Of a DNA stretch of 36,158 bases, positions 8,679 to 35,257 are shown piece after piece. Within the stretch, counting starts at the first letter, position 1. Every line of letters begins with the position of its first letter. The notes under the pieces were generated by a model. It saw only the letters and a program-made list of their open reading frames with translations. It did not search any database and was not told where the DNA came from. The stretch lies in contig CANDGI010000032.1 of NCBI GenBank assembly GCA_947384285.1, forward strand, positions 1-36,158, in the 5' to 3' direction. The position numbers and the translations under genes were made by a program. The stretch comes from an uncultured Lachnospiraceae bacterium (lineage in GTDB: Bacteria; Bacillota; Clostridia; Lachnospirales; Lachnospiraceae).

Positions 8679-8792
8679 TTTGGATGCGGACGGAAAGACA
8701 GAATTGCCTTAAGATAATCCATGTTGATTTCTGTCTTTCCTGTGTATCCAAACGTACGAAATCTGCCCTAAGATAATCCATGTTGATTTCTG
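8679..8792 (+). repeat. Palindromic element copy 1, with an internal direct repeat
   Basis: Just after the EpsG stop, GGATGCGGACGGAAAGACAG pairs in part with CTGTCTTTCCTGTGTATCC. The right arm is followed by AAACGTACG. The arms resemble those at 15.0-15.2 kb (GGGATACGGACGG and TTTCCTGGGTATC). The 24-bp sequence TAAGATAATCCATGTTGATT (plus TCTG) occurs at 8710 and again at 8769, so the interior was partly duplicated. It belongs to the dispersed element family described in the findings. Confidence 0.6.
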
Positions 8793-8858
8793 CTGTCTTT
8801 CAGGAAGTAAATGGAAACTTAGGCATATGGACTGTAATGTTAATTCGTGTGGATTCCT

Positions 8859-9914
8859 TTAATCCTCTGCCCTTGCCATTGCTTCCTGGAAGTCTTTTTG
8901 GTCGGTGAATATCTCATATTTATATGGATTCTTTTTCTGCACAACTGCCCGTTTGATGATGGCCGCTAGGCAGATGACATTGGCAGCCAGGGCAATCATT
9001 GCAATGATGCCTTGTGCCCGGGGGTCTGCATAGGTTGGCTGGGCTGCTGAAGATAAGTCAAGGCCGTCCTTCCATCCTGGCCCGTAAAGGCTTGGCAGCA
9101 CAGAAAATTTTCCGCTAATCTGGAATAAGGGGAAAACCTGGGCGAACATGCACCAGGCAGCCAGGGTGTTGGCACGGTTCTGAATCCAGCCGCCCTTGTT
9201 CCAGAATTTATTGGCAAAGGTAGGCGCAAGCAGCAGTGCAAAGCCGCAATACCATGCATGGGTAGGCAGGTTCAGATATGTATACTCAAAGTTCCAAAGG
9301 TCGTATGCAATGATAAAGCACCAGGTCATATCCGGCCACAGCATATCGTCTTTTTTCTTAGAAGAATAAATGCCCCACCAGCCGGTCATACAGAAAATGT
9401 TAAGGATTCCTGCAATGCCATTGACCCAATTCCACCAGCCGCCATACAGCCAGACGCCTTCGTTGGACATCCAATACCTGGAACCTGTTTCCGCCAAAGC
9501 CGCTGCGCCCCTGATTCCAGACTCAAAATCGGAACCTACCGCAATCAAAATGTTAATTGCCACAATCACAAATGGAAATGGTTTGAACCACTCATTCTTG
9601 CCGATTCCCCATTTATATTTAATCATCATAAAGCCAATACATCCCGCCACTGCCGCATACAGCTTGGCATAGTGGAACCAGCCGCCCATATAAAGATGGG
9701 TCTGGTTATTTACTGCCCATTCTGCGCCTGTGGATGCTCCCACCGCAATTGAAACAAAATAAACGGTCAATGCAAGGGGAAGGGCAAGGAAGAAGAAGAT
9801 TCCTCCTGCCTTTGTCCGCCGGGCAATTTCATTGCAGACCACCAACCCGGTAAACACCAGCACCCAGCCGATCAACTGATACATGGCATTGTCGCCATAA
9901 ATTTGAAATAACAT
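8859..9914 (-). CDS. DUF5692 family membrane protein
   Basis: A 351-residue integral membrane protein with about nine hydrophobic segments, very rich in tryptophan and aromatic residues. I recognise it as DUF5692, a family of unknown function found in gut Firmicutes and Actinobacteria. I start at ATG 9914 because AGGAGG lies nine bases before it; the frame stays open to 9950. The conserved-looking WPDMTWCFIIAYDLWNFEYT block and the N-terminal GASTGAEWAV could line a transport or catalytic site, but this is speculation. It appears monocistronic, with superoxide reductase upstream on the same strand and a strong hairpin between them. Confidence 0.7.
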   Translation of the reverse strand: MLFQIYGDNAMYQLIGWVLVFTGLVVCNEIARRTKAGGIFFFLALPLALTVYFVSIAVGASTGAEWAVNNQTHLYMGGWFHYAKLYAAVAGCIGFMMIKYKWGIGKNEWFKPFPFVIVAINILIAVGSDFESGIRGAAALAETGSRYWMSNEGVWLYGGWWNWVNGIAGILNIFCMTGWWGIYSSKKKDDMLWPDMTWCFIIAYDLWNFEYTYLNLPTHAWYCGFALLLAPTFANKFWNKGGWIQNRANTLAAWCMFAQVFPLFQISGKFSVLPSLYGPGWKDGLDLSSAAQPTYADPRAQGIIAMIALAANVICLAAIIKRAVVQKKNPYKYEIFTDQKDFQEAMARAED

Positions 9915-10052
9915 TCTACATATCCTCCTTTTATTTCCTATAAATTTCAACTGGCTATACCAGCTATTTGATAAAATTTTAATACTTTTTTAATATTTTT
10001 TCAAGTTTTTTAATAATTCCCTTTTCGTCCATTTATCAAACCATCTGGTACA

Positions 10053-10146
10053 TCTAGAGCGAACGTTTCATATTGGGATAAGGAGGTCTCTGGCGAATTG
10101 CCCAGTTTGTGTACCAAAGGGCAATCCGCCAGAGACCTCCTTATCC
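10053..10146. repeat. Palindromic element copy 2: long hairpin after superoxide reductase
   Basis: A 28-bp arm at 10076-10103 pairs with 10119-10146 with one mismatch, around a 15-base loop. The outer side carries CTAGAGCGAACGTTTCATAT (10053-10072), the arm shared with the copies near 22.6, 33.2 and 35.2 kb. The hairpin lies 26 bp beyond the superoxide reductase stop. It probably ends or protects that transcript, although no T-run follows. Confidence 0.85.
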
Positions 10147-10171
10147 AGAGATAAAACTAATCTTATAGAAA

Positions 10172-10540
10172 TTACCGGATTTCTGCTTTCCACAACCCAT
10201 GCAGGTTACAGTATTCATAGGCCGCCACCGGCTCATCATCCGAAGACAATTTGAATTCCGCTTCTGGCTTTTCCCCCGGGGTAAGCTTCCGAAGCATCCC
10301 GCCATGCTTTGTCTCCAGATAAATCCACATAATATAATGCTCTTCCAGCATAGGGTGCTCCAATTCTCCTACCTTCACCAGGATAGCATCACCCTTTTTC
10401 TCCACCAGCGGCACATGTTTTTCCCCGGAGGCATCCGTAGTATTTGCCAAAAGCTCCTGAAAGACCTTTGCCCCTTCCTGCTGGCCCGATACGATTTCCA
10501 TTGCTATGCTGCAGCATTCACTGCACTTAAAAAAATTCAT
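10172..10540 (-). CDS. Superoxide reductase (desulfoferrodoxin/neelaredoxin family)
   Basis: A 122-residue cytoplasmic enzyme that reduces superoxide to hydrogen peroxide with electrons from rubredoxin, a typical anaerobe defence. The iron ligands of the catalytic centre are in place: H42 (KHVP), H62 (EHPM), H68 (EHYI), C111 and H114 (YCNLHGLW). The N-terminus has C6, C9 and C10 but not the full four-cysteine desulforedoxin site, so centre I is probably absent or incomplete. AAAGGAG precedes the ATG. A rubrerythrin gene at 20.1 kb would remove the peroxide it makes. It appears to have its own transcription unit. Confidence 0.93.
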   Translation of the reverse strand: MNFFKCSECCSIAMEIVSGQQEGAKVFQELLANTTDASGEKHVPLVEKKGDAILVKVGELEHPMLEEHYIMWIYLETKHGGMLRKLTPGEKPEAEFKLSSDDEPVAAYEYCNLHGLWKAEIR

Positions 10541-10618
10541 AAGACATACTCCTTTGCTATATATTTTCCAGTACTCCTCTCTTTAGTATATCCAAAGTTT
10601 CTGTCTTCCATTCCTAAC

Positions 10619-11500
10619 CTACCGCTCAATCGTGATGTCATAGAACCGCTCAAACACTTCGCCTGCCGCCAGCTTATTGTTCCATTCACGGTTCTTTAAG
10701 GTTCCGCCAAAGTTCTCCCGGTCACACCTGCCGTACCAGGGTTCAATGCATACAAAGGGCGCCTGCTTCTTTTCCGGCGACCAGATGCCCACCAACGGGG
10801 ACTTGAAGGAAACGGTAAGATAAGGCACATTTTCCGCATCCGCCAATGAGATTTTCCCTACCTGGTAATCCTCAATAATATAGGCTCCCTCGTCGAAAAA
10901 TCCATCCGCCAGCAAATGCCTGCCGCCAGGCAGTGCCAGCATATTTTTATAATTATGCATCAAGCCCGTATCCAGGTTGATTTTGGAAAACAAAACCTCC
11001 GTCTGATCCATCCAGATGCTGTATTCACTCTGCTTTTCCCCCTTCTTCAAAGGACACAGAAATGCCGGATGCCCGCCAATGGCAAAATACATATTCCGGG
11101 TGGGTTCCTCGTTAATCACTCTCCAAATTACCGTAACAGTATTTTCCACAAGCCGGTATCCGATTTCCAGACGAAAATCAAAAGGATAATTCTCCCGTGT
11201 GGCGGGTGTTGCATCCAGCCCAAACCAAATTTCTTCCTTGTTCTCTGAAATGCAGGCAAATTCCATATCTCTGGCAAATCCATGCTGAGGCATGTGGTAT
11301 TCCTGATTATGGTATATATATTTATCCTCCTTCAGCCGTCCTACAAGCGGGAAAAGCACAGGTGAACGCCGTCCCCAATACCGCTTATCTCCCTGCCACA
11401 AATACTCCTGTCCCGTTTTTCTATCCTTCAAGGACATCATCTCTGCACCCAAAGTGGAAAACTGAACGCTTAACCTCTCATTATTTAATTCGTAAACCAT
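10619..11500 (-). CDS. Aldose 1-epimerase family protein (LacX-like)
   Basis: A 293-residue galactose mutarotase-fold protein. Likely active-site residues are the histidines in MPQHGFARD and AIGGHPAF and the glutamate in CIEPWYGRCD, which match the acid/base residues of aldose epimerases. The family interconverts alpha and beta anomers of sugars or hexose phosphates. Length and motifs fit the LacX/YihR-like subgroup rather than GalM. It lies downstream of a lone sugar-binding lipoprotein and a chemoreceptor on the same strand, 73 bp away, so a link to the same sugar is possible. GAGGAGAG precedes the ATG. Confidence 0.85.
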   Translation of the reverse strand: MVYELNNERLSVQFSTLGAEMMSLKDRKTGQEYLWQGDKRYWGRRSPVLFPLVGRLKEDKYIYHNQEYHMPQHGFARDMEFACISENKEEIWFGLDATPATRENYPFDFRLEIGYRLVENTVTVIWRVINEEPTRNMYFAIGGHPAFLCPLKKGEKQSEYSIWMDQTEVLFSKINLDTGLMHNYKNMLALPGGRHLLADGFFDEGAYIIEDYQVGKISLADAENVPYLTVSFKSPLVGIWSPEKKQAPFVCIEPWYGRCDRENFGGTLKNREWNNKLAAGEVFERFYDITIER

Positions 11501-11573
11501 TGTCTCTCTCCTCGCTTTCTATGAAAATTCCCATTCTGCCCTGCCTTATGGCTGGCAGGCTGCAAAATCATGG

Positions 11574-12542
11574 TCATTGGTATTTCTCTACATTCGTGCT
11601 GTCAACTTTTTCAAAAGGAACCCAGACATACTTGCCATCTTCGGATAAGCCTTCTATTTCCTTTGCAGAACCTCCGGCTCCAAGAGCCATCGCCACCTTC
11701 ACCGCGGCTTCTCCCTGCCCCGTTGCTGATTGGTAAACGGTAAACTCCATATCACCTGCAACAATGGCTGCGCACCCGTCTGCCGTGGCGTCAATGCCCA
11801 ATATGGCTGCATCCGAAATCCCATTCTTTTTGCAGGCGTCGATGACTCCAAGAGCCATTGCATCATTATTGCATGCCACCACATCAAATTCTTTTCCCGT
11901 GTTTAAGAATACATTGAAGTATTTCTCTGCCTTCGCCTGGTCCCAGTCTGCATGATCCTGAAATACATAATTAATCTTCTTTCCAGATTTATTCAGGGTA
12001 TTTTTCAATTGGCCTGTTCTTCCTTCCGTTGCGGAATGGCTGTTAGGCCCTGTGATAACAGCCACGTTAATTTCATTCTCTCCGGCCATCTTGTCCAAAA
12101 TATATTCTGCCTGGTATTGTCCGGCAACCCCCTCGTCAGATCCCACGTACATATATTTATCTGCTTCCAGGTGAGCCTCATCCGGGCAGCTATTGAAAAA
12201 CACAATCGGCAGATCCCCTGCAATTGCTTCCAGTTCCAGCGCCGTGTCTGTATCCACCGGCGAGCAGACAATTACATCATATCCTTCTTCCACAGCCTGC
12301 TTCACCTGCTCCACCTGGACTTCGATGGAATCCTCCGCTTCATGCACATCCAGCGTTACCCCATTCTTTTCTGCCGTTTCCTTGGCACTGTTGATCAATA
12401 CGGTGCGGAAGGTATCGGCGGAAGAAAGTGTCAGATAAATCTTTGTATTTCCGCCTGCCTTGGAACTCTCTTTCCCAGCACAGCCGCACAGGCAAACCAT
12501 CATCCATGCTGCCAAAAACAGCATTCCAGCTCTCTTTTTCAT
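11574..12542 (-). CDS. Sugar-binding lipoprotein (ABC-type periplasmic binding protein fold), orphan
   Basis: A 322-residue type I periplasmic binding protein (LacI/ribose-binding-like). It has a lipoprotein signal ending in the lipobox LCGC (C21), so it is anchored outside the membrane. Two-lobed fold blocks include [20 protein letters not shown], the acidic hinge segment [20 protein letters not shown] and [21 protein letters not shown], which resemble the glucose/galactose and ribose binders. No ABC permease or ATPase gene lies in the window. It follows a chemoreceptor gene by only 12 bp, so its likely role is to present a sugar to that receptor. It may also serve a transporter encoded elsewhere. 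The ligand is not known. Confidence 0.85.
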
Positions 12543-12554
12543 CCCAATCCCTCC

Positions 12555-14558
12555 TTAAATACGGAATAATTTTACCTGCTCTGCCAGTTCTTCTGAAGAA
12601 GCTGTCAGGCTCTTTGACTCCTCCGCCACATGGGCGCTGTTCTTTGCGATTCCCTTTGCCTGCTCCAGCATATTTTCCGAGGTGGCAAGAATCTCATCCG
12701 AGCTTGCCGCCTGTTCTTCAGAAATAGCCGCAACGTTTGCCGCAACCTCATCCACCTGATTAATCTTTCCAACCATATGCTCAATCATTTCGCTGGTTTC
12801 CTGGATATTTCCAAAAATCTTTTCAAAGGTATCAATTGCCGTGTGGATCAGCTCACTGCTCTTTCCGATATCCTCTGCACTGCTGCCTGTCTGGCGCACT
12901 GCATCTGCTACCAGTGTATTTACCTCATCAATCAGCTTTGAAATATGTTCCGCAGAATCTGCGCTGTTATTTGCCAAGGTTCCGATTTCAGAAGCAACCA
13001 CTGCAAATCCCCGGCCTGCTTCCCCGGCTCTTGCCGCTTCGATGGAAGCATTCAAGGACAAGAGGTTTGTCTCCTCCGCAATATTCCCAATCACCTGGAC
13101 AATCGCTACAATCTCCCCGGATGCCGTTCCCACTTTATTGACTGCCGTTTCAAGGTTGGCAATGGACGCCCGGATATTCTCAAGCTCCTTCCCAACACGC
13201 TCCATGTCTTTTCTTCCCTTTTGGGATACCTCCACAGTTTCCCGCATTTTATGTTCAACATCGTCGCTGTCAGCCTTCGTATCCGCCACTACCCCTGCCA
13301 GCTTTGTTGCATTTTCCGCAATCTCGTATACGGAAAGGGAAAGCTGGTCTACGGTGGAGTTCAGTTCTCCCATGGATTCGGACTGGATAGCCGCCGCAGA
13401 CTGCATCTGCCTGGATACATTATCACTCGTATCCGCCTGGGTTCCAAGCTTATCGGAAATGCTGCCCATGGAGGCAATCATTTCTTTCATAGAATGGATA
13501 AAACGTTCCACACTCCGGCTCATAACGGCAATCTCATCATTCCCCTTGCTGGTTACATCTACAGTAAAATCACCGTCCGTCATTGCAGTGATTACCGCTG
13601 TCAGCTTTTTCACCGGATTGATGACAATATGGGTTACCCGTTCAATCACAAGACACAAAACCAGAATGGAAACCACGCTGATGACAATCATAATGGTACG
13701 CAGACGGATTAAATCTGCCATAACAACATCTTTTGGAATATGGGAAATTAAAATCCAATCTGTTCCGCTAACTTTTTCAAATACCGTCATATTTCCTTCC
13801 AGGACTGCAAAATCATAGTCCTGATCCATGATTTTCTCTCCCACCTTCTGTTGGAACGCATTGCCGCCTTCCCCGCCTATTTTCGTAGAAATCAATGAGC
13901 TGTCCCGGTTTGCAAGGATTGTACCGTCTCTGCCGTCCACCAGAAATGATTCTGCCTTTTTCATCTCGATAAATCCATTTACAATGATGGAAATACGATC
14001 TAAGGTCATATCTGCTGAAATCACTTTTATCTTTCCAGAACCATCATTTAAAATACCTGATGCGCTGATGACATTCTCCCCCTGGGCATTCACATGGGCA
14101 GAGCCCACTGCCATATTTACCCGGGTCAGGCCTTCCTGATACCAGGCGCTTCCTGCTGGGTCTTCCTCGCTCACCGTAGACTCCGATGCCCGGAACACCT
14201 TTCCGTCCTCATCCGCAATATACAATCCCTGAGGATAGTTGGAATTATAATTATAGTAGCCATCCAGAATTGCCTGGAGCTGGTTTTCATCCGGCTTAAT
14301 ATTTTCCAATGCAGACTTCACTGCCTGGAATGCCTCAATGTTCTCGTTCAGCCAGCCTTCAATCTGGGCAGACTGGTTCCCTACGGATGACTCTAAAAGA
14401 TTCCTGGAATAATTCTCAATAATTCCTGCTGATGTACGGTAAGCGATCAGCACCAGCACAATCATCAGCAAAACCACAATGGGCACAATAATTGCCAATA
14501 GCTTCATCCGGATCGATATGATTCCCTGTCTTTCCTTCTTTTGTCCCTTCTTTTCCAT
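12555..14558 (-). CDS. Methyl-accepting chemotaxis protein with dCACHE-like sensor
   Basis: A 667-residue transmembrane chemoreceptor. It has a first membrane segment at about 18-40, an extracellular sensor of about 240 residues with CACHE-like phrases (GLYIADEDGKVFRASEST, AWYQEGLTRV, LVDGRDGTILANRD), a second membrane segment, a HAMP domain (NPVKKLTAVITAMTDGDFT), and the signalling domain with the hairpin tip EAGRGFAVVASEIGTLANNS. It sends ligand information to CheA/CheW; no che genes are in the window. I start at ATG 14558 with AGGAAGG six bases upstream rather than the GTG at 14564. It is directly followed by a sugar-binding lipoprotein gene, which is the notable pairing. Confidence 0.93.
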   Translation of the reverse strand: MEKKGQKKERQGIISIRMKLLAIIVPIVVLLMIVLVLIAYRTSAGIIENYSRNLLESSVGNQSAQIEGWLNENIEAFQAVKSALENIKPDENQLQAILDGYYNYNSNYPQGLYIADEDGKVFRASESTVSEEDPAGSAWYQEGLTRVNMAVGSAHVNAQGENVISASGILNDGSGKIKVISADMTLDRISIIVNGFIEMKKAESFLVDGRDGTILANRDSSLISTKIGGEGGNAFQQKVGEKIMDQDYDFAVLEGNMTVFEKVSGTDWILISHIPKDVVMADLIRLRTIMIVISVVSILVLCLVIERVTHIVINPVKKLTAVITAMTDGDFTVDVTSKGNDEIAVMSRSVERFIHSMKEMIASMGSISDKLGTQADTSDNVSRQMQSAAAIQSESMGELNSTVDQLSLSVYEIAENATKLAGVVADTKADSDDVEHKMRETVEVSQKGRKDMERVGKELENIRASIANLETAVNKVGTASGEIVAIVQVIGNIAEETNLLSLNASIEAARAGEAGRGFAVVASEIGTLANNSADSAEHISKLIDEVNTLVADAVRQTGSSAEDIGKSSELIHTAIDTFEKIFGNIQETSEMIEHMVGKINQVDEVAANVAAISEEQAASSDEILATSENMLEQAKGIAKNSAHVAEESKSLTASSEELAEQVKLFRI

Positions 14559-14718
14559 GAACACCCTTCCTCTTTTCTCCTGATACAGCAGCAGATTGCT
14601 GTAACGGACTTTATTTGCTATTCTTCTATTTTAGTATGTTTCGGCAGATTATACAAGAAAAGATTCAAAAATTGAGGGGATTTTTACAGAATTATGAGCG
14701 TTCTGCTGCAAAGATTTG

Positions 14719-14810
14719 TATACTTGGGATGTGGATGGCAGTTTTTTTTGCTATTGGGGGATATTGGGATACGGACGGCAATTTGGGGTATTCAAATATC
14801 AGTGGCGCTG
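14719..14810. repeat. Palindromic element copy 3 in the MCP-aldolase gap
   Basis: GATATTGGGATACGGACGGC (14760-14779) faces TTTGGGGTATTCAAATATC across a short interior. The left arm matches the outer arm of the 15.2-kb element. A diverged second copy of the left arm lies at 14722-14740 (ACTTGGGATGTGGATGGCA). An open frame of 103 codons crosses this stretch, but it has no ribosome binding site or recognisable product. I see no gene in 14559-15254. Confidence 0.5.
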
Positions 14811-14930
14811 AAAAAGGAGCCAGCTTGCTGGATATTGAAATAGCAAATGGCTGCGGCGGGAGAGCTGGTTCTGTAAAAAATGCGGGATGGAAACGCTGTG
14901 AATTATTCTGGCATATCTTTCTATAAAAAC

Positions 14931-14987
14931 TGCAGGATACAGCGCCCTATCGTCTTACGAATCAAGTGCCATATCCTGCAATTTTTT
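14931..14987 (+). terminator. Bidirectional-looking hairpin terminator
   Basis: TGCAGGATA (14931-14939) pairs with TATCCTGCA (14972-14980), and TTTTTT follows at 14982-14987. A run of A before the left arm means it could also work on the minus strand. No gene ends next to it on the plus strand, so what it terminates is unclear. Confidence 0.5.
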
Positions 14988-15023
14988 ATAAATCCAACAA
15001 TGAAACGTTACAAATTGCCCAGA

Positions 15024-15254
15024 CTGCTGCAACGTTTATATTTCGATACCCAGGAAATCCGGGAGCGCCCTTTCTAAGCGGACGATTCACGTGCGCACTT
15101 AGCGGAGGCGAAATCCACTGCTTAGGCCGACTTAGGAAGGAGGGCTTTCCCGGCTTCCCTAGCCGAAGTTAGCAGTTCGTTCGCCATCGCGCTGCCCGGT
15201 CCGCGTGAGAAAGGGCACTCCCGGATCTCCGTCCGTATCCCAAATATATTATCC
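15024..15254. repeat. Palindromic element copy 4 with a long structured interior
   Basis: Long arms at about 15044-15075 and 15208-15239 pair through ATCCGGGAG, GCCCTTTCT and flanking bases. The interior (about 132 bp, GC-rich) has its own small palindromes: CTAAG/CTTAG at 15074-15102 around CACGTG, and several GGCTAG, GGAAGCC and CCTAAG blocks. The right end reaches to within one base of the aldolase stop codon. I find no open reading frame in it. It looks like a structured RNA or a non-autonomous repeat; I do not recognise a named family. Confidence 0.75.
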
Positions 15255-16106
15255 TTATGCTTTTCCTACGCTGCCGCACACTTCCATCTTGCTCATCACG
15301 TATTCTTTCACCTTATCTCTTCCGCAAGCGTTATATTTCTTCGGGTCGATGGTGTCCGGGCTGGCGGAAAGAACCTCCTTCACGCCATTGGAAAATGCAA
15401 TCCGCAGATCCGTTGCGTAATTCACCTTGCAGATCCCCCGGCGGATACATTCTTTTACCGCCTCATCCGGCACCCCTGATGTGCCGTGGAGCACCAGGGG
15501 AATAGATACTGCTTCCCGGATTTCGCTTAAGCGTTCCACATCCAGCTTGGGGGTTCCCTTGTATACGCCGTGGACGGTTCCGATGGCAACAGCCAGGGAA
15601 TCAATGCCGGTAGCATTTACAAACTCCACAGCCTCTGAAGGTACGGTATATCCGCCGCCTTCGCCGCCGTCCAAATCATCCTCCTTGCCCCCTACTTTTC
15701 CAAGCTCCGCTTCCACTGGGACATGGGAGGGATGGCAGGCGTCAACCACCGCTTTTGTCACAGCGATATTCTGTTCAAAGCTGTCGTGGGAGCCGTCAAT
15801 CATAATGGATGTGTAACCGGTGCGCAGTGCGCGCATTGCCAGCTCAAAGCTGTTTCCATGGTCTAAATGCATGACAACAGGTACGCTGGCCTGGTCTGCT
15901 GCCGCCTTTACATTTGCATAGAAGTAAGAAAGGCCGGCATATTTTACGGTAGAAGGCGTGGTCTGCAGAATCACCGGGGAGCGAAGCTCCTCTGCCGCTG
16001 CCACTACTGCCTGCACCATTTCCATATTTTCCACATTAAATGCACCGATTGCATAACCACCCTTCTGGGCGTCTAACATCAATTGTTTTGTTGTCGCCAA
16101 TGCCAT
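15255..16106 (-). CDS. Class II fructose/tagatose-bisphosphate aldolase
   Basis: A 283-residue zinc-dependent ketose-bisphosphate aldolase that splits fructose- or tagatose-1,6-bisphosphate into dihydroxyacetone phosphate and glyceraldehyde 3-phosphate. VMHLDHG holds the catalytic aspartate (D82) and a zinc histidine (H83). AIGTVHGVYKG and VLHGTSGVPD carry the other zinc histidines. Length and the GEGGGYTVP loop fit the GatY/KbaY/FbaA class. It is the last gene of a kinase - PTS - aldolase operon, 20 bp after the EII gene, which completes a route from imported sugar to triose phosphates. Fructose versus tagatose cannot be decided by eye. Confidence 0.92.
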   Translation of the reverse strand: MALATTKQLMLDAQKGGYAIGAFNVENMEMVQAVVAAAEELRSPVILQTTPSTVKYAGLSYFYANVKAAADQASVPVVMHLDHGNSFELAMRALRTGYTSIMIDGSHDSFEQNIAVTKAVVDACHPSHVPVEAELGKVGGKEDDLDGGEGGGYTVPSEAVEFVNATGIDSLAVAIGTVHGVYKGTPKLDVERLSEIREAVSIPLVLHGTSGVPDEAVKECIRRGICKVNYATDLRIAFSNGVKEVLSASPDTIDPKKYNACGRDKVKEYVMSKMEVCGSVGKA

Positions 16107-16126
16107 GGCAATTCCCTCCTTAACTC

Positions 16127-18010
16127 TTATTTATTTTCCAGCAGACGTACGATTTCCTCTCTGGACTTAGCATTCATCAAGCTGTTTGTAAATTCTTCAT
16201 GCACCAGCTTGCCAGACAGCTCTGCCAGTGTCTTCAGATGTAAATCCCCACCGTTCTCATTGGTGGCAATCATAAATACCAGATGTGCCGGCTCGCCGTC
16301 CTCGGACGCAAAATCAAATCCTTCTTTGGAAACGCCAACTGCCACTCTCGGGGTTTTTACCGCGCTTGTCTTGGCATGGGGAATTGCAATTCCCATACCC
16401 ATCCCTGTGGTGGATAACGCTTCCCTGTCATAAATTGCTTTCTTAAAGTTCTCTTTATTTGCAAGAACCCCGTCTTTTTCCAGCAAAGCTGCCATCTCTT
16501 CAATTACTTCATCTTTCGTTTTTCCCTTAACCTGCAAGGTTACTGTGCTGGCATGGTACAAGCTCTGTGCTGGCTTTGCTTCTGCCCGGCTTACATTCCC
16601 TGTGCTGTCTGCAAAAACCATGGGAGCCTCTGCTGCTTCCACTACCTTCGGCGTTATCAGCACATACAGGACTGCGCCGATGGCAGAGCCAACCAAAATA
16701 CATCCAACCCACAGAAGTGGTTTATTTACTAATCCAAGAATCAAAAATCCACCGTGAGGCGCGGGCACTTCAATTTCCATCAGATAAGAAAGCACTGCTG
16801 AGACGGAAGAGCCAATCATAAGAACCGGAATCACCTTCAACGGGTTTTTTGCCGCAAAAGGAATGGCTCCTTCTGTAATATGGGTGCAGCCAAGCACGTA
16901 GTTAATCAAACCTGCTGCTCTGTCATCTTTGGTAAAACGGTTTTTACAGAAAGTTGCTGCCAGCGCAATAATCAGCGGCGGTGTAATGCAGGCTGCGGAA
17001 ACCCCTGCCATAAACAGGTAATTCCCCTGGCCCAAGAGCATCGTTCCTGTGACATATGCCGCCTTGTTTACCGGGCCGCCCATGTCAAATGCGGACATGC
17101 ATCCTACTACAACGCCCAAAAGCAGCGGATTGGAATTCTGCAGATTTGCCAAAAATTCCATCATCATGTTGTTTAATGCGGAGCAGGGATTTCCAAGCAA
17201 TACCATTACTGCCCCGGTGACCCCCACAGATATAATGGGTATCATGAAAATCGACTTTAAGCCTTCTAACTGTCTTGGCATTCTGCCGAATATCTTTACC
17301 AGCCAAAGCACAAAGTAACCTGCCAAAAATCCTCCGATGATACCACCGATAAAGCCGGAACCTGTCTCAGCGGCAATCATGCCTGCAACAAGGCCTGCCA
17401 GCATACCGGGCCTGCCGGAAATGGACTGGGCGATAAATGCTGTCAGCACCGGAACCATCAATCCCATGGAATATCCGCCGATAGACTTAATCAAGGCTGC
17501 TATTTCGTTGTACTGGCTGGACTCTGGGTCAAAAGAGTAAATTCCCCAGAGGAATGAAATGGCTGTCAGCACACCTCCGGCAACCACAAGGGGCAGCATA
17601 TGGGAAACACCGTTCATCAGATGCTTGTAAATCTGGCGGCCAATGGACAGTTCCTCTTCCGGAGCTGCCTGGCTTTGCACGCCGCTTCCCTGCCTTACAT
17701 GCACATTTCCATCCAGGCATCTTTGAATCAGCTCCTTTGCCTTGCTGATGCCGTCTGCCACCGGAACCTCCAGCACCGGCTTTCCATTGAAGCGCTCCAA
17801 ATCCACATTTTTATCGCAAGCGACGATAATCGCATCCGCTTCCTGAATATCTTTTGCTGTCAGGGCATTTTCTACCCCGATTGCTCCGTTTGTTTCAACC
17901 TTGATTTCACATCCCAGCTCTGCAGCGGCCTTTTTCAATGCCTCTTCTGCCATAAAGGTATGTGCAATACCAGTCGGACATCCGGTAACGCCTAATATCT
18001 TCTTTGCCAT
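16127..18010 (-). CDS. fruA: Fructose-type PTS EIIBCA
   Basis: A 627-residue phosphotransferase permease that imports and phosphorylates a sugar in one step. The domain order is IIB (residues 1 to about 100, phosphocysteine C11 in GVTGCPTGIAHTFMAEEAL), IIC (about 125-455, roughly nine to ten membrane segments, with GGPVNKAAYVTGTMLLGQGN), then IIA (about 475-627, phosphohistidine H545 in GIAIPHAKT). Bacillus FruA has IIA first, so the order is rearranged but complete. It starts 4 bp after the kinase stop. Together with the kinase and aldolase it suggests fructose, or another ketose taken up as the 1-phosphate. The symbol is by analogy. Confidence 0.9.
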   Translation of the reverse strand: MAKKILGVTGCPTGIAHTFMAEEALKKAAAELGCEIKVETNGAIGVENALTAKDIQEADAIIVACDKNVDLERFNGKPVLEVPVADGISKAKELIQRCLDGNVHVRQGSGVQSQAAPEEELSIGRQIYKHLMNGVSHMLPLVVAGGVLTAISFLWGIYSFDPESSQYNEIAALIKSIGGYSMGLMVPVLTAFIAQSISGRPGMLAGLVAGMIAAETGSGFIGGIIGGFLAGYFVLWLVKIFGRMPRQLEGLKSIFMIPIISVGVTGAVMVLLGNPCSALNNMMMEFLANLQNSNPLLLGVVVGCMSAFDMGGPVNKAAYVTGTMLLGQGNYLFMAGVSAACITPPLIIALAATFCKNRFTKDDRAAGLINYVLGCTHITEGAIPFAAKNPLKVIPVLMIGSSVSAVLSYLMEIEVPAPHGGFLILGLVNKPLLWVGCILVGSAIGAVLYVLITPKVVEAAEAPMVFADSTGNVSRAEAKPAQSLYHASTVTLQVKGKTKDEVIEEMAALLEKDGVLANKENFKKAIYDREALSTTGMGMGIAIPHAKTSAVKTPRVAVGVSKEGFDFASEDGEPAHLVFMIATNENGGDLHLKTLAELSGKLVHEEFTNSLMNAKSREEIVRLLENK

Positions 18011-18014
18011 CCTT

Positions 18015-18935
18015 CTATCTCACCTTTCTAACCTGAATATTTTTCCTGTAAATGTCTACTTTTTTCAAATCTCCGATTGCATCGCTTTCTGCCACATTGG
18101 CTCCGGTAGCGGCGGACTTTTTCAAAGCCTCCTCCACCTGTTCTGGATGCTCCAGCCATTCGCTCATAAATGCGGCTAGGGCAGAATCCCCCGCACAGGC
18201 GGAACTGCGCAATTCTACAGGCTGTGCGCTTGCGTAATAAATTGCTTTTCCATCCGAGAAATAAGAGCCCTTATCCCCAAGGGTCAGCAATACATTCTGT
18301 GCACCCTTCTCATGTAAAATGTCCATGACCTCCCCGATATTTTCTTCACCCTCAATGGTAATTCCAAAAATTTCTTTTAATTCCTCATCATTGGGCTTAA
18401 TTAAATAAGGCCGGTACGCCAGAAGTTCTTTTAACTTGGGCGCGCTGATGTCCAAAATAACCTTCACGTCCTTTTCCTTGCAAATGGAAAGAACCTCATC
18501 ATAATACTCTGTCCCAACGCCTTTGGGCAGGCTGCCGCTGATGGATAAATATTCCATATCCTTAAGGCTTTCCAGCAGCTTCGTCATTTCTTTCTGGTTT
18601 TCTTCTGTTACCAGAGAGCCTTCGTTCACAAACTTAAATTCCTGTGTGCCGTCATTTAAAAAAATATTGATTCTTGTGGTGTCTTCCACCATGACCGGCA
18701 GCACCTCAATACCCTTTTTCCTGGATTCGCTCACAATATAGTCTCCCGAAAACCCTCCAAAAAAACCAAGGATTTTAGACTCCACCCCAAAATGCTTTAA
18801 AACAAAGCTGACATTCAACCCTTTTCCATTGGGCGTGTATACCGTATCAAAGGTTCGGTTCACCGCGCCTGGAACAATTCCCCGGGTCGAAATATTCATA
18901 TCGATTGCCGGGTTTGTTGTTAATGTATAGAGCAT
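18015..18935 (-). CDS. fruK: 1-phosphofructokinase family sugar kinase (PfkB fold)
   Basis: A 306-residue PfkB/ribokinase-fold kinase of the FruK/LacC group. It has the N-terminal TLNPAID-like start (TTNPAIDMNI), NGKGLNVSFVLKHFG for sugar binding, and ACAGDSALAAF with the catalytic aspartate near the C-terminus. The likely reaction is fructose 1-phosphate plus ATP to fructose 1,6-bisphosphate, which the co-encoded aldolase would then split. Tagatose 6-phosphate kinase is the alternative. It is the first gene of the operon, with an AGGAGGAGG ribosome binding site. A 10-bp-arm palindrome lies 48 bp upstream and probably controls it. Confidence 0.88.
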   Translation of the reverse strand: MLYTLTTNPAIDMNISTRGIVPGAVNRTFDTVYTPNGKGLNVSFVLKHFGVESKILGFFGGFSGDYIVSESRKKGIEVLPVMVEDTTRINIFLNDGTQEFKFVNEGSLVTEENQKEMTKLLESLKDMEYLSISGSLPKGVGTEYYDEVLSICKEKDVKVILDISAPKLKELLAYRPYLIKPNDEELKEIFGITIEGEENIGEVMDILHEKGAQNVLLTLGDKGSYFSDGKAIYYASAQPVELRSSACAGDSALAAFMSEWLEHPEQVEEALKKSAATGANVAESDAIGDLKKVDIYRKNIQVRKVR

Positions 18936-18982
18936 TTTTAACCTCCTCCTGTTTTTTATGGCTTCATTCTACATCAAAAAAA

Positions 18983-19020
18983 GATGAAAATCTTTTCCAA
19001 AATTGAAAACGATTTTCATC
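18983..19020. promoter_or_regulatory. Candidate operator of the PTS operon
   Basis: GATGAAAATC (18983-18992) and GATTTTCATC (19011-19020) are perfect inverted arms of 10 bp. The right half also resembles a catabolite (cre) site, TGAAAACGATTTTCA, with one extra base. It lies between the kinase gene and the RpiR regulator gene, so the RpiR protein is the likely binder. This is inferred from position. Confidence 0.6.
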
Positions 19021-19053
19021 CTTTTTCTGTTCAATATCCTATGCATCCGATTT

Positions 19054-19794
19054 CTATTGGTAAGAGGTAAGATAGTCGATAATCAGCCGGGCCATAATCT
19101 GCAAAGGCACCCGGGAGGATACCTCAAACTCCTTGATTGCTTTATGGCTGTGATGGAATCCCACCAGGCTGCAGACCGACAATTCCAGCAGCGGGGACTT
19201 TTCATTGCAGCAGCAGGTGAGCACCTTCGCTCCGCAGAGATTGGCATTTTTGGCTGACTCAATCAGCTCCTGAGTCATGCCGTTTAACGAAAAGTTAAAT
19301 ACCACCTCATCTGTTTTTAAACGCTTGGTTTTATTGCGCATAATATTTGGATCCCGGACTGAAACTGCGTTAAAATCCAAAAGCTGTAATTTCAGGGTAA
19401 ACTCCTCCGCCACATATTCCGTCAGCCCCCGGCCAAACACGAAAATCCGGCTGGCTTCTTTGAGATATCTGATAATTTCCAGAATCCCGGAAACGGAAAT
19501 CTGCTCAATCACCCGCTGGGCTTCTATCAGGGATTTGTTCATCACCTCTCCCATATTCTGGATATCCTTTTCCTCGGCCTTCACCGTCAGGCGGTATCTC
19601 AGCTCATTAAAGCCGTTGAGCCCGCATTTTCGTATTGCCCGTGAAACGGTGGAGGGGGACGAAAAAGTATCAAATGCAATTTCAACAATGGAAAGCTTTG
19701 GCATCCGCTCCTCGTTTTCATTGATAAACCGCACAATTTCCAGCTCCGTTTTTGACAAAGCCTCTGTAATTTCTTTATTCAGCTCTATTAGCAT
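19054..19794 (-). CDS. MurR/RpiR family transcriptional regulator
   Basis: A 246-residue regulator with an N-terminal HTH (residues about 1-77, including KLSIVEIAFDTFSSPSTVSR) and a C-terminal SIS sugar-phosphate binding domain (about 110-235, RIFVFGRGLTEYVAEEF). RpiR proteins sense sugar phosphates and control nearby sugar genes. I start at ATG 19794, preceded by GGGAGG six bases upstream; the frame stays open much further, through the 36-bp repeats, but that is an artefact of the repeat. It is just upstream of and co-oriented with the fructose-type PTS operon and probably regulates it through the palindrome at 18983-19020. Confidence 0.88.
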   Translation of the reverse strand: MLIELNKEITEALSKTELEIVRFINENEERMPKLSIVEIAFDTFSSPSTVSRAIRKCGLNGFNELRYRLTVKAEEKDIQNMGEVMNKSLIEAQRVIEQISVSGILEIIRYLKEASRIFVFGRGLTEYVAEEFTLKLQLLDFNAVSVRDPNIMRNKTKRLKTDEVVFNFSLNGMTQELIESAKNANLCGAKVLTCCCNEKSPLLELSVCSLVGFHHSHKAIKEFEVSSRVPLQIMARLIIDYLTSYQ

Positions 19795-19909
19795 CGGTAT
19801 CCTCCCGTTCTGCAGCATTCCATACGCCCCTTCACTTTTATATTTTACAATATATCTGTTTATAATTCCATGCTGCAGGAAAATTCTCTGATATTTTTTA
19901 ACGAAAAGC

Positions 19910-20052
19910 GGTGTACCATGCCATATCTGCAGGCGCAAAAAAACGGTGTACCATGCCATATCTGCGGGCACTGAAAAAACGGTGTACCATGCCATATCTG
20001 CGGACGTTAAAAAAGCGGTGTACCATGCCATATCTGCGGGCGCTGAAAAAGG
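19910..20052. repeat. Four 35/36-bp tandem repeats upstream of the RpiR gene
   Basis: GGTGTACCATGCCATATCTG starts at 19910, 19945, 19981 and 20017, so the spacing is 35, 36 and 36 bp. The 15-bp linkers differ slightly (GGCGCAAAAAAAC, GGGCACTGAAAAAAC, GGACGTTAAAAAAGC types). The array fills much of the 19795-20115 gap between rubrerythrin and rpiR. It is too short, and its units too uniform without spacers, to be a CRISPR. I see no gene in the gap. Confidence 0.92.
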
Positions 20053-20115
20053 CAGCCAGAAAACGGCTTTTCCTCCGCATTTCTAACTGCCCTGCCACAT
20101 CATTGCAAACTGATT

Positions 20116-20655
20116 CTAATAATTCTCTGCCTTCACCTGGAAATAAGACTGGGGGTGGTCGCAGACTGGACATTTCTCTGGCGCCTCTTTTCCAACGCAA
20201 ATATGCCCGCAATTGCTGCACTGCCAAATCACATCTCCATCTTTGGAAAATACCTTCTTACCGGTTACGTTATCCAAAAGCCTGCGGTATCTTTCTTCAT
20301 GCTCTTTCTCTATCTTTGCCACGCCTTCAAATAATTCTGCAATATCGTTGAAGCCTTCTTCTCTTGCCTCTTTCGCGAACTGAACATACATATCTGTCCA
20401 CTCGAAATTCTCTCCGTTTGCAGCTGCCTTTAGGTTCTCTTCTGTAGAGCCCACGCCGCCGTTTAAGAGTTTATACCACATTTTTGCATGTTCTTTTTCA
20501 TTTGCCGCCGTCTCCTCAAAAATGCTGGCAATCTGCACATACCCGTCCTTTTTGGCCTTGCTGGCAAAATAAGTGTACTTATTCCTTGCCATGGATTCTC
20601 CGGCAAAAGCCGCCTCCAGGTTCTTCTCCGTCTTCGTTCCTTTTAAGTCTGCCAT
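20116..20655 (-). CDS. rbr: Rubrerythrin
   Basis: A 179-residue non-haem di-iron peroxidase. It has an N-terminal ferritin-like four-helix domain with the ligand motifs [13 protein letters not shown] and [13 protein letters not shown], then a C-terminal rubredoxin domain with CSNCGH and CPVCDH. It reduces hydrogen peroxide to water in the cytoplasm of anaerobes. The length matches the family. A strong promoter (TTGACA - 17 bp - TACAGT) lies upstream, so it is probably an independent unit. It complements the superoxide reductase at 10.2 kb functionally. Confidence 0.96.
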
Positions 20656-20699
20656 TTTGTTCTCCTCTCTGTATCTTAATTGTTTCCGGTTGTGGTTCT

Positions 20700-20728
20700 A
20701 CTGTACCTTTTTTGGAAGGATTTGTCAA
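20700..20728 (-). promoter_or_regulatory. Rubrerythrin promoter
   Basis: On the minus strand TTGACA (20723-20728), a 17-bp spacer and TACAGT (20700-20705) lie about 45 bp before the rubrerythrin start. Confidence 0.7.
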
Positions 20729-20739
20729 TTTGTTTTATG

Positions 20740-20808
20740 TTTCTGAAATTTTATACCAGTTCCGCAATCCTGGTAACGCCCACATAGATTTCTGAAATTT
20801 TATACCAG
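20740..20808. repeat. Direct repeat at the 3' end of the peptidoglycan-binding gene
   Basis: The 20-bp sequence TTTCTGAAATTTTATACCAG occurs at 20740 and 20789, a spacing of 49 bp. The right copy encodes the TWYKISEI segment of the peptidoglycan-binding domain. The left copy, read in another frame, supplies the stop codon at 20751. Confidence 0.8.
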
Positions 20809-22022: not shown

Positions 22023-22128
22023 AAACACCTCTGAATTTCTACACTTATTTATAGTTTATGCCAAACTGCAGAAAATGTTCCACCCATCCATTCCTCCAGT
22101 AAGAAAAATCTGATCCAAATACATTATA

Positions 22129-22174: not shown

Positions 22175-22208
22175 CATTCTCTTTCTATCCCTGTAAGCCA
22201 AACATTTT

Positions 22209-22403: not shown

Positions 22404-22575
22404 TTTCTTTCCTCACCTGTATGTATATGGAGTTCCTAAAACAATTTCTTTTTACTCTGCTATACTAACATTAGTTTGTGAAAAAGTCTTTAAATCCATC
22501 CTGCTTTTTTCTTAAAAAATAATAAAATTCAGGAAAGAAAACAGAAATACCCTCGGATTCTACCCTCATTTCCAC

Positions 22576-22643
22576 CTGGAGCGAACAATCTGTATTTTGA
22601 TACACAGGAAAGGGAGGATCCAATATGAAACGTCAACTGTAGT
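22576..22643. repeat. Palindromic element copy 5, downstream of the NUDIX gene
   Basis: CTGGAGCGAACAATCTGTAT at the left and CCAATATGAAACGTCAACTG at the right are diverged inverted ends of the family. Between them GATACACAGGAAAG matches the right-arm motif of copies 1 and 4. It lies 18 bp after the NUDIX stop. The rest of 22404-22575 is AT-rich with no gene that I can support. Confidence 0.7.
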
Positions 22644-22660
22644 ACTGGAACTGTCCAGGA

Positions 22661-23281
22661 TCAATCAAACTGCGTCACCCAGTTCTGCGACCGGTATGCC
22701 TGAAAGCACATCTCTATCTGTTCCCGGTTACACTTCTCCTCTGCAAGGCCTGGCAGCTCATGCTCTGCAAAATATCCTGTCTCTGTGGTTTCAATGTTTG
22801 CCACAAAGACGCCTCCAAGGGATTCGCAAAGGTAAAAAATTTTCACTACTCCGTAGGCATAGGAGGGCTGGTTATGCTTCGCCCGGTCCTGCACTGAGAT
22901 CACAGACCGGACGGCAACATCCAAGCCAGCCTCCTCCTTCACCTCTTTTATGGTATTCTCCATGGGAGACTGGTCTAAATCACACCATCCCCCTGGCAGC
23001 GACCAGCTTCCGTCGCTCTCATGGACAAGAAGAATTTTATCCTCTTTGAAAACCGCCGCCCTTGTGTCAAGCTTCGGCGTCTGATATCCCGTGTCGTTGC
23101 AAAACAGATGGGTAATCTTATCAGTTGGAAATCCTGTCCGTTCCGCCATCATTTCCGCTGCAATTTCCCGGATTCTCTGATAACGCTCCTGGTCATACAC
23201 GCCTTCACTGTAATACAGCCCAGACTGTGCAAGGCTCTGCAGCTCTATAGCCCACCTGCTGATTTTATCATCAATCTTCAT
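22661..23281 (-). CDS. NUDIX hydrolase with N-terminal helical domain
   Basis: A 206-residue pyrophosphohydrolase. Residues 1 to about 65 are the helical N-terminal domain found in a subgroup of bacterial NUDIX proteins (ISRWAIELQSLAQSGLYYSE). The Nudix box spans about 97-120, with GGWCDLDQSPMENTIKEVKE then EAGL; the usual REV arginine is a lysine, but the EVKEEAG metal-binding core is intact. It hydrolyses a nucleoside diphosphate linked to another group; the substrate is unknown. Its ATG overlaps the ilvE stop by 4 bp, so it is translated together with the branched-chain aminotransferase, an odd partner. Confidence 0.9.
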   Translation of the reverse strand: MKIDDKISRWAIELQSLAQSGLYYSEGVYDQERYQRIREIAAEMMAERTGFPTDKITHLFCNDTGYQTPKLDTRAAVFKEDKILLVHESDGSWSLPGGWCDLDQSPMENTIKEVKEEAGLDVAVRSVISVQDRAKHNQPSYAYGVVKIFYLCESLGGVFVANIETTETGYFAEHELPGLAEEKCNREQIEMCFQAYRSQNWVTQFD

Positions 23282-32128: not shown

Positions 32129-32129
32129 T

Positions 32130-33092: not shown

Positions 33093-33230
33093 TGCACTTT
33101 TATCCTCCGAATATGTTTTCGTGTGTTTCCGCATACAGTATGATTTCATTTTTATGAAAACACACTTCAGCATCCGGTGGGCCGGATGGCTGTCCCCACC
33201 ATTGTAGCGGATTTTGAGGAAGATGTAAAG

Positions 33231-33262
33231 CCTGGAGCGAACGTTTCAGACTGGGATACAAA
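33231..33262. repeat. Palindromic element copy 6 (half element)
   Basis: CCTGGAGCGAACGTTTCAGA followed by CTGGGATACAAAGG is one arm of the dispersed family. No matching second arm is evident on the other side. It lies directly after the stop of the degraded frame at 33265. Confidence 0.65.
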
Positions 33263-33264
33263 GG

Positions 33265-33598
33265 TCAAGGCAGGATGATGCTTCCTCCGCCGGTCCATGC
33301 GCCATCCTGGATTTCAATGGGGAGGGCGTATGTCCGGAAAAATGTTGTTCCCGACTTTTCGAAGTCTTCCACGAAACGCTCTTTGGGCAGAACAGGATGG
33401 GAAGAAGTATAGCCTTGTACTGCCACAGTTTCCAGCGACAAGAGCCGCATCAAAGATATGGAGCCTTTGTATATTCCTTTCTGTCCGTGACACAGCCCTG
33501 TGCCAATGCCAGGGCACCGAACGCCCTGCATGCTTATCCAGCTGGGCGTTGGATGCAATATACGGAAATTCAGATCCAAAACCAGGCAATAATTCCTC
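33265..33598 (-). pseudogene. Degraded frame with AraC-type cupin N-terminus
   Basis: On the minus strand GFGSEFPYIASNAQLDKHAG then RSVPWHWHRAV is a good match to the N-terminal cupin of AraC-type regulators in Lachnospiraceae. A possible ribosome binding site (AGAGGAA) lies before it, with a TTG start. After about 35 residues the similarity ends, and a second frame continues to a stop at 33265 (ending FRTYALPIEIQDGAWTGGGS), which I do not recognise. The parts are in different frames, so this is a broken or fused remnant. Neither half is likely to be functional. Confidence 0.5.
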
Positions 33599-34508: not shown

Positions 34509-34581
34509 AGCGATAGACGGGGCTCGAACCCGCGGTCTCGACCTTGGCAAGGTCGCGCGTTACCAACTACGCCACTATCGC
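34509..34581 (-). tRNA. tRNA-Gly (anticodon GCC)
   Basis: A complete cloverleaf on the minus strand: the acceptor stem GCGATAG/CTATCGC, a D-arm with AGTTGGTA, the anticodon stem-loop ACCTTGCCAAGGT with GCC, and the T-arm GCGGGTTCGAGCCCCG. The discriminator is T, and CCA is not encoded. A strong promoter and a terminator flank it, so it is a single-gene unit. Confidence 0.97.
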
Positions 34582-34592
34582 GCTTCTTGTAT

Positions 34593-34621
34593 ATAATACA
34601 ATATGCCCTCCTTTTTGTCAA
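34593..34621 (-). promoter_or_regulatory. tRNA-Gly promoter
   Basis: TTGACA (34616-34621), a 17-bp spacer and TATTAT (34593-34598) on the minus strand lie 11 bp before the tRNA start. Confidence 0.8.
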
Positions 34622-34628
34622 TAGTTTT

Positions 34629-34656
34629 TTGACAAAAATTTCATCATGAATATTTT
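34629..34656 (+). promoter_or_regulatory. Candidate promoter for the 34.7-kb gene
   Basis: TTGACA (34629-34634) is followed after 16 bp by TATTTT (34651-34656). It is back-to-back with the tRNA-Gly promoter. Confidence 0.5.
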
Positions 34657-34705
34657 ACTTTTTCCTCTCATATAGTAGTTCAAAGAGAGATTAAGGAGGA
34701 ATCCT

Positions 34706-35146
34706 GTGAGTTCAAAAACAAAAATTGTTGTCCTGCACCTGAAAGAAGTGGTCTACACAGCTATTTTCGCCATACTTGGAATCCTGCTGGTGATACTGCT
34801 GATCTTTATGTTCCTGCCGGATGACAAAGAGAAGGCCACAAAAGAAACCATGAAATATACGGCGGGGGTATATACTTCCTCCATACAATTAAATGATAAC
34901 GCCATAGATGTGGAGGTTGTGGTAGATGATAACCATATCAATTCTATTACGCTGGTAAACCTAGATGAATCCACCGCTGCCATGTACCCCCTGATGCAGC
35001 CCACACTGGATAACATTACCCAGCAGGTTTACGAAAAACAATCCCTGGACAATATTTCTTACGGGGACGACAACCAATATACCTCCATGGTGCTGTTAAA
35101 CGCAATCCAGGCCGCCCTGGACAAAGCAGCCTACATAGAAGAGTGA
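34706..35146 (+). CDS. Membrane-anchored protein, FMN-binding-like outer domain
   Basis: A 146-residue protein starting at GTG 34706 with AAGGAGG upstream. It has one N-terminal membrane helix (about 13-37, TAIFAILGILLVILLIFMFL) and an outer domain of about 105 residues. The domain pattern AGVYTSSIQLNDNAIDVEVV and the C-terminal YTSMVLLNAIQAALDKA resemble small FMN-binding-type domains, but the flavin-linking S/T(G)AT motif is not present. Function is unknown. It converges with the DegV gene across a palindromic element. Confidence 0.7.
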   Translation: MSSKTKIVVLHLKEVVYTAIFAILGILLVILLIFMFLPDDKEKATKETMKYTAGVYTSSIQLNDNAIDVEVVVDDNHINSITLVNLDESTAAMYPLMQPTLDNITQQVYEKQSLDNISYGDDNQYTSMVLLNAIQAALDKAAYIEE

Positions 35147-35185
35147 CACTTGCCCGGCAGTCTCTTTTTCAAACACGCTCTAAAT

Positions 35186-35257
35186 CTACAGCGAACATTC
35201 AATATTTCAATACACCAAAAAGGGGCTGCCTATCCCAATATGAAATGTTCGCTGTAG
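35186..35257. repeat. Palindromic element copy 7, complete copy between convergent genes
   Basis: CTACAGCGAACAT (35186-35198) and ATGTTCGCTGTAG (35245-35257) are perfect 13-bp inverted ends, with the inner CCAATATGAAATGTTCGCT matching copies 2, 5 and 6. It is 72 bp long and lies 3 bp from the DegV stop. It best defines the family ends. Confidence 0.9.

Follow-up and report, generated by a model that had tools for sequence, protein, structure and literature searches.

Repetitive extragenic palindromic (REP) sequences are moved by Y1 transposases, and the miniature inverted-repeat transposable elements (MITEs) with TA ends include the ERIC, Correia and Nezha types. As described in PMC3733652, REPs are 20-40 bp long and obey a rule of neighbour orientation like the one reported below; those of the CGTC group have stems of 8-9 bp, lie mostly in co-directional and convergent gaps, rarely form head-to-tail pairs and have no dedicated transposase. 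A repeat candidate of another kind, MRSC-65-2, is presented in PMC11109978 as one long stem with strong covariation, often in dozens of copies per genome and possibly relevant as DNA. Here, the window is a stretch of 36,158 nt from an uncultured Lachnospiraceae bacterium (contig CANDGI010000032.1 of assembly GCA_947384285.1, forward strand) in which an earlier note had pointed to seven loci that share inverted arms. These loci belong to a family of long hairpins that is probably a non-autonomous, REP/MITE-like mobile DNA family of Lachnospiraceae, recognised through its core and moved in trans. Free sequence change with a surviving fold suggests that a mobile element is recognised here through the shape into which it folds; if true, the repeats known from a major gut bacterial group would be extended by a large family defined by its structure.

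In the literature consulted, no description of a palindromic, MITE, REP or structured-RNA family in Lachnospiraceae was found; a numbered but undescribed motif in the supplements of PMC8040213, a human microbiome survey with 3161 candidates of which 250 are palindromic, is possible. The main text of PMC3733652 contains no words beginning with Firmicutes, Clostridi or Lachnospir, and the main texts of PMC11109978 and PMC8632094, surveys of structured bacterial RNAs, contain none of Roseburia, Blautia, Dorea and Lachnospir.

Copy number and distribution

The window's genome is a draft of 3,232,474 bases on 74 contigs, 83% complete. A genome-wide search with the arms, as proposed in the earlier note, gave many matches. 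The 19-nt arm TTTCCTGTGTATCGAAATA was found at 88 places with up to 3 mismatches, compared with none for the reversed control. Similarly, CATATTGGGATACGGACGG was found at 32 places (up to 3 mismatches) and CCAATATGAAACGTTCGCT at 12 places (up to 2 mismatches), versus one and none, respectively, for the patterns read backwards. The repeat family is genuine, and it is large. When 90 stretches of this genome (416 kb) were searched with profiles, 47 two-armed copies and 81 single arms of varied strength were obtained, lower-scoring overlapping matches being dropped before counting. Several copies abut contig ends, and thus the family breaks assemblies.

Sorted by length, the two-armed copies range from 77 to 257 nt, plus one of 411 nt that holds another inserted repeat. 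The interiors had been thought to differ completely from copy to copy. By eye, the longer copies instead have a common interior (GCCCTTTGGCACGCAAACTGGGCAGCGTTCCGGCAAACTAACTGCTAACTACGGCTAAGG...CCTAAGTCTGCGTAAGCAGTGGATTTCGCC...ACGCCCATGAATCGTTTGCTTAGCCAAAGGGC), and most of the 47 are nested pieces of it, the shorter ones mostly resembling nested internal deletions of a common element of about 250 bp; exceptions contain a local palindrome, as does the copy at window position 8654, or a different inserted repeat. Still shorter copies that retain both outer ends, about 45-60 nt long, also occur (L371, L162/L372 and L384), and the series overall extends from 257 nt to about 45 nt with both ends still recognisable. 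The shorter copies may have arisen from the full unit by internal deletion. Additionally, partial arm copies lie in tandem beside full units at the left ends of L142, L148 and L143, at the right ends of L133 and L135, and at window positions 8749-8790, a pattern that slippage of the polymerase on a large hairpin, or repeated abortive insertion, would be expected to leave.

Presence among Lachnospiraceae is patchy. One-arm searches (up to 2 mismatches) matched 9 of 61 genomes, own included, with 66 matches in the own genome, 65 and 15 in congeners G022 and G025, and no more than two in any other. The two arms were spaced by 186 nt in 19 of 31 long candidates, 18 of the 19 from G022. A 152-nt interior query matched 12 of 299 genomes of the family, own included, with two candidates scored per genome. 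R1, a covariance model built on the core, had matches in 11 of the 29 genomes searched in the genus, own included, with 1-51 matches each (G022, 51; own, 25; G008, 19; G001, 10; G025, 9; six others, 1-4), a few of these being opposite-strand doubles. In the family at large, R1 matched 19 of 250 genomes, own included, with at most 13 candidates scored in each, and E-values reached 1.7e-40 in other genera; it found 38 matches in G154, a nearly complete genome. An exact search of 84,980 species genomes with the core pattern CTAAGTCTNCGTAAGCAGTGGATTTC yielded 70 stretches, whose record titles name Lachnospiraceae, Dorea, Acetatifactor, Lachnotalea, Eubacterium, 'Clostridia' and 'Clostridiaceae'. 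A shorter form of this pattern had no match in viral contigs, nor did two distant BLAST searches with the element as query match phage or plasmid records; carriage by viruses, phages or plasmids was accordingly rejected on these searches.

The arms might also be chance similarities of AT-rich sequence, as the earlier note had allowed. The count of 88 places against none for the control refutes this, and with the E-values obtained in other genera its probability is negligible.

A covarying hairpin with a fixed core

The full unit of about 210-250 bp is a single rod (long hairpin), made up of a short conserved base (GGACG ... CTGTKTAY), an outer stem, a core that is conserved along with its fixed mismatches, and a tip that varies. 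Many units in the window genome and two congeners add outer arms (RYACTACAGCGAAC...GTTCGCTGTAGTRY). By eye, the outer stem spans about 20-26 bp and its sequence differs completely between genera yet stays complementary; the tip likewise differs completely with its complementarity kept, and the core is common to the genera. The predicted folds of five own copies have energies of -78.8 to -116.3 kcal/mol.

Covariation was assessed on an alignment of 32 diverse cores (A2), with the consensus structure predicted on the same alignment. This consensus rod has 36 pairs, in which 95.8% of 1151 cells are paired, compared with at most 45.4% when the partner is slid by 1-3 columns. Two-sided changes occur at 28 of the 36 pairs, in 161 cells, whereas shuffles average 46; covariation of the core fold is strong. 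Across the same 32 cores, 24 columns are invariant, in and around the internal loops and many of them at mismatches; for instance, an A.A mismatch is fixed in CTAAC/GTAAG and in GACTAAG/CTAAGTC, and TAAC stands opposite TGGAT. Because the stems exchange sequence freely and the mismatched core is frozen, every copy offers a natural experiment on what maintains pairing, selection or template switching. In covariation screens, the family would resemble structured RNA.

In L185 and L216, the inverted repeat runs on nearly perfectly for about 60-90 nt into the flanks, which could reflect fold-back copying or an assembly artefact.

Dispersal and ends of the unit

After removal of overlapping matches with lower scores and of 72 of 255 matches whose core was identical to another (mostly one place in overlapping loci), 183 distinct copies with 250-nt flanks were compared all against all. 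Pairs at unrelated sites were 92-95% identical over about 220-245 bp, and the similarity stopped sharply on both sides. Examples are L132/L140 (95.4% over 237 bp) and L259/L123 (95.0% over 241 bp), all in G022, and, among the loci of other genera, L239/L220 (93.1% over 216 bp). Therefore, the single unit disperses. With its many copies, patchy presence and near-identical units at unrelated sites, the dispersed REP/MITE-like family proposed in the earlier note is strongly supported.

In the window's genus, the outer end was recognised within 3 mismatches on 50 of 127 right arms. In other genera, the ends seem to be GGACG and CTGTKTAY, as judged from 29 of 102 copies that were anchored, by anchors which themselves contain those letters. 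Outer arms are present in G000, G022 and G025 and were not found in the drafts of carriers G008 and G001; we take them to be a later addition in one lineage. Among 23 distinct copies with both outer ends, TA precedes the left end in 16 and follows the right end in 11. TA on both sides, at first taken for a feature of about half the copies, was counted in 7.

Upstream of rpoB, 27 loci of the genus were compared, and the start could be read in 23. Elements lie there in G022, G025 and the window genome, and the other 20 of the 23 had none in 900 nt at an E-value of 0.01, with flanks too diverged to fix the ends. The two congeners, representing two species, have an identically placed convergent pair (L316 in G022 and L320 in G025), and the window genome has a shorter copy (L337). 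By eye, the stems at this site in G022 and G025 differ by one compensated pair and several single mismatches.

Copies within the window

Arms were confirmed at all seven loci, at positions that differed from those first given by a few bases at most. The features are as follows.

8654 to 8775, plus strand: copy 1, inner arms GGATGCGGACGGAAAGACAG / CTGTCTTTCCTGTGTATCC enclosing a local hairpin (palindrome)
10053 to 10146, plus strand: copy 2, outer arm and left inner arm; left arms only
14760 to 14800, plus strand: copy 3, minimal, GATATTGGGATACGGACGG and a short loop closed by GTATTCAAATATC
15018 to 15268, minus strand: copy 4, near full length (251 nt), with both inner arms, a long stem and a complete conserved core
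15078 to 15206, minus strand: core of copy 4, R1 positions 1-129, 127.7 bits, E-value 4e-36
22572 to 22648, minus strand: copy 5, 77-nt short derivative with both arms
33228 to 33277, plus strand: copy 6, left arm only, degenerate and weak (7.8 bits, E-value 0.79)
35166 to 35183, minus strand: TTAGAGCGTGTTTGAAAA, after copy 7
35182 to 35263, minus strand: copy 7, 82-nt short derivative with complete outer ends TACAGCGAACATT / AATGTTCGCTGTA

Part of the right side of copy 1 recurs directly downstream (8749-8790). In copy 2, the original right arm has given way to a sequence exactly complementary to the left arm (GGATAAGGAGGTC...GACCTCCTTATCC); from reading of the sequence, a fragment of the family interior sits inside. 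The outer arms of copy 4 are unrecognisable, and its core was among the 32 sequences used to build R1. Copy 7 had been taken, at 35186-35257, for a complete unit; it is a short derivative whose ends are complete. It had also been stated that six of the seven lie within about 30 bp of a gene 3' end, which is roughly correct. Measured against mechanically called open reading frames (ORFs), this stood for five, at 0-26 bp; copy 6 hinges on an uncertain ORF (33265-33579), and copy 3 lies outside that distance. A transfer RNA gene lies at 34509-34581 on the minus strand.

Two other repeats were met beside the family. One, with ends CTAGAGCGTGTTTGAAAA, is present in all five congeneric genomes searched, in lengths of 59 to about 280 bp, several being 165 bp (L118:2033-2299; L154, L157, L168, L170, L178, L179 and L152; L163:1502-2383). 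In L163, its ends flank a split IS4/5-type transposase (DUF4096 and DDE_Tnp_1), and this second family thus looks like MITEs of an IS5-type element. Its 17-nt end often lies directly outside the ends of the hairpin family, pointing outward, without the rest of the second element (window 35166-35183; L010, L140, L145 and L147). A third repeat, also palindromic (GAACCGTCAAGAAATAACTTTTAA...), interrupts a copy of the hairpin family, by eye with CTTAG on both sides (L032, on own contig C8 at about 66870-67270, and L004); a related copy lies before rpoB in G025.

Placement relative to genes and pairing

Gene positions were taken from a simple gene caller, and own single arms below 25 bits were excluded. 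Elements lay inside a called gene in 4 of 197 cases (own two-armed copies, 0/47; own single arms, 4/53; G022, 0/27; elsewhere, 0/70). Gaps with an element were convergent in 38 cases, co-directional in 108 and divergent in 12, versus 22, 201 and 44 among gaps of at least 60 nt without one, a convergent enrichment against a divergent depletion with p = 6e-6. In co-directional cases, 72 of 121 elements were closer to the 3' end (p 0.045). A link with 3' ends thus exists, though within co-directional gaps it is weak, and the element's strand is not the one that a transcript end would lead one to expect. A position near 3' ends is equally expected of tolerated intergenic insertion.

Neighbouring copies follow a strict rule of orientation. 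Among 171 copies in 18 genomes, neighbours within 3.5 kb were plus then minus 21 times and minus then plus never, with one plus-plus and five minus-minus cases. With all matches of G154 listed, three more convergent pairs and one more minus-minus pair were obtained, bringing the total to 24 convergent against 0 divergent. This count omits lower-scoring overlapping matches, most opposite-strand doubles and 11 genomes with no neighbour within 3.5 kb among the matches listed (G017, G112, G131, G161, G167, G176, G185, G195, G203, G219 and G275). A replication-strand bias was also considered: the 13 best copies of G154 looked polarised, and all 38 listed copies gave no significance (p 0.15 with the terminus at 1.7-1.9 Mb; p 0.08 at 2.0 Mb).

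The 24:0 ratio is the observation that would favour a larger transposon, in which each unit forms one end and a convergent pair with its cargo is the mobile element. However, of the 19 pair spacers extracted, of which two represent the same place and two were too short for comparison, the only matches to one another were at a duplicated locus, at an orthologous locus that G022 and G025 share upstream of rpoB, and over one weak 23-nt stretch. Partners of a pair were as different from each other (median identity 83.9%; 13 alignments, one a double) as copies from different pairs in G022 (84.1%; 128 alignments), alignments below 100 nt being dropped. The genes enclosed by more widely spaced pairs differ, and single units disperse. 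Therefore, the pairs seem to have come together through independent insertions that obey a strict rule of orientation, the convergent pair as a transposon with cargo is unsupported, and such an origin is very improbable. The rule among apparently independent copies is a concrete and testable puzzle.

Constraint at the level of DNA or RNA

If the family were a structured RNA, as a 3' untranslated region or a stand-alone transcript, its rod might protect messenger RNA ends, terminate transcription or bind a protein. The strong covariation, the invariant letters in and around the internal loops, the very stable predicted folds, and the enrichment in convergent gaps and at 3' ends are all in keeping with this. 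RNA selection on either strand should, in addition, give a preference for G.U. Mismatches in the outer stem were therefore counted with G.U disallowed during folding; overlapping matches of lower score were dropped, the identical-core filter removed 41 of 190 matches, and 112 of the 149 distinct copies were long enough to fold. The outer stems contained 4601 Watson-Crick pairs, with 65 G.T and 79 A.C isolated mismatches, versus 829 pairs with 33 G.T and 10 A.C in 80 terminator-like hairpins of the same loci (p = 0.0003, with counts treated as independent, which they are not fully because some of the 112 copies are related). Counted separately, the core had 15 G.T and 30 A.C, and the tip 2 and 8; in the pair table of A2, 17 cells were G.U versus 27 A.C. 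The stems of the 112 copies thus show no G.U preference on either strand, and their complementarity is more likely to be kept by a DNA-level constraint.

Other observations also speak against an RNA. Elements in co-directional gaps were sense in 46 cases versus antisense in 75, and one copy (L328) lies between an ftsW-like and an ftsQ-like gene, as named from their sequences. None of 15 terminator-like sites (loops of 3-8 nt only) in 8500-23000, a scan that took in five window copies and left those at 33228 and 35182 outside, fell on an element. Rfam 15 gave no informative match for the window, five own loci and eight loci of relatives, and membership in an Rfam family was rejected. The hairpin role at RNA 3' ends suggested in the earlier note is thus not supported, given the antisense excess, the missing G.U preference and the terminator scan, and a structured RNA is unlikely. 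Two Rfam matches lay apart from the core: a mir-5014 match below the gathering score in L195 (35 bits; gathering, 101), beside the core, and a GA-cis RNA (RF02987) above the gathering score at L120:1161-1247, apart from the element.

The equal rates of G.T and A.C could also be expected of passive, decayed repeats, that is, old insertions with arms that are complementary only through template-switch mutation, with no present recognition or movement. One arm reads as the complement of the other in window copy 2 and in the copy before rpoB, and template switching is documented in PMC8794818 as able both to create and to mend stems. Although template switching would explain such arm-to-complement copies, it leaves the frozen core mismatches unaccounted for, and these call for the fold to be recognised. 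The 24 invariant columns in 32 diverse cores, many at mismatches, need selection, and units up to 95% identical at unrelated sites represent recent dispersal. Passive decay is thus quite unlikely.

Proposed mobilisation in trans

In the preferred reading, a non-autonomous mobile DNA hairpin, a putative enzyme supplied in trans would move the family and would recognise its core, folded in DNA that is single-stranded or extruded. The palindrome may provoke slippage and template switching during replication, which may account for the deletions, arm duplications and arm homogenisation, and closeness to 3' ends may result from insertion preference or tolerance rather than from an RNA function. It is conceivable, although doubtful, that the family is a distinct class of mobile DNA, in which identity resides in the folded, mismatched core and not in the ends or the stem sequence, a single-stranded hairpin is read by an enzyme other than a Y1 transposase, and a second copy settles only in convergent orientation.

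The preferred reading meets several difficulties. No mobilising gene was found, the outer-arm loci having had no protein search, and the genes called near 20 loci (pairs and singles) have nothing obvious in common. The Y1 transposase family PF01797 had no match in the richest genome, G022. TA stands on both sides in 7 of the 23 copies that have both outer ends, which does not exceed the expectation for independent sides; TA may therefore belong to the ends, and target duplication is not demonstrated. The rpoB comparison yields no verified empty site. Simple transposition explains neither the excess of antisense elements in co-directional gaps (75 versus 46; p 0.011) nor the convergent rule of 24:0, and template switching should erase fixed core mismatches unless they are selected. 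Of the core pair columns, 49/83 is rich in G.U, with seven versus one A.C. Finally, in one of five covariation measures, further pair types were barely above the shuffles (49 versus 44.9, with 28 of 500 shuffles reaching 49).

PF01797 had no match in four of 12 carriers searched (G022, G008, G109 and G167, all drafts, G008 being 74% complete) and also occurs in non-carriers; dependence on a REP-associated tyrosine transposase (RAYT) is thus not supported. No autonomous element with matching ends was found at 30 outer-arm loci of draft genomes, which were read by eye for 290 nt inward without a protein search.

Comparison with known systems

Integron attC sites, recombined by IntI as folded sites, resemble the elements in principle only. 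The likeness to MITEs lies in the non-autonomous, palindromic unit, the length series, TA beside many ends and, in the window's genus, inverted ends. In contrast to MITEs, the conserved part is the interior and not the ends, because G008 and G001 showed no outer arms.

As with REPs, bacterial interspersed mosaic elements (BIMEs) and REPINs, there are many intergenic palindromes per genome, most of them in convergent and co-directional gaps, and neighbours in opposite orientation with few head-to-tail pairs, but at 210-250 bp the elements are several times larger than REPs and have a conserved mismatched core. With respect to the REP tag (GTAG/CGTC), the reverse strand of the element ends in ...CGTCC, with the first C paired, which is only a lead. 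A single long covarying stem in many copies per genome is shared with MRSC-65-2. However, the conserved UYCCGG repeat of the latter is not kept, the A2 consensus reading CTnCGG there, variable by eye, and MRSC-65-2 is reported from diverse phyla (PMC11109978), whereas the present family was seen only in Lachnospiraceae, its genera and Clostridia-type records. The nearest known kinds are the CGTC REPs and the MRSC-65-2 repeat candidate.

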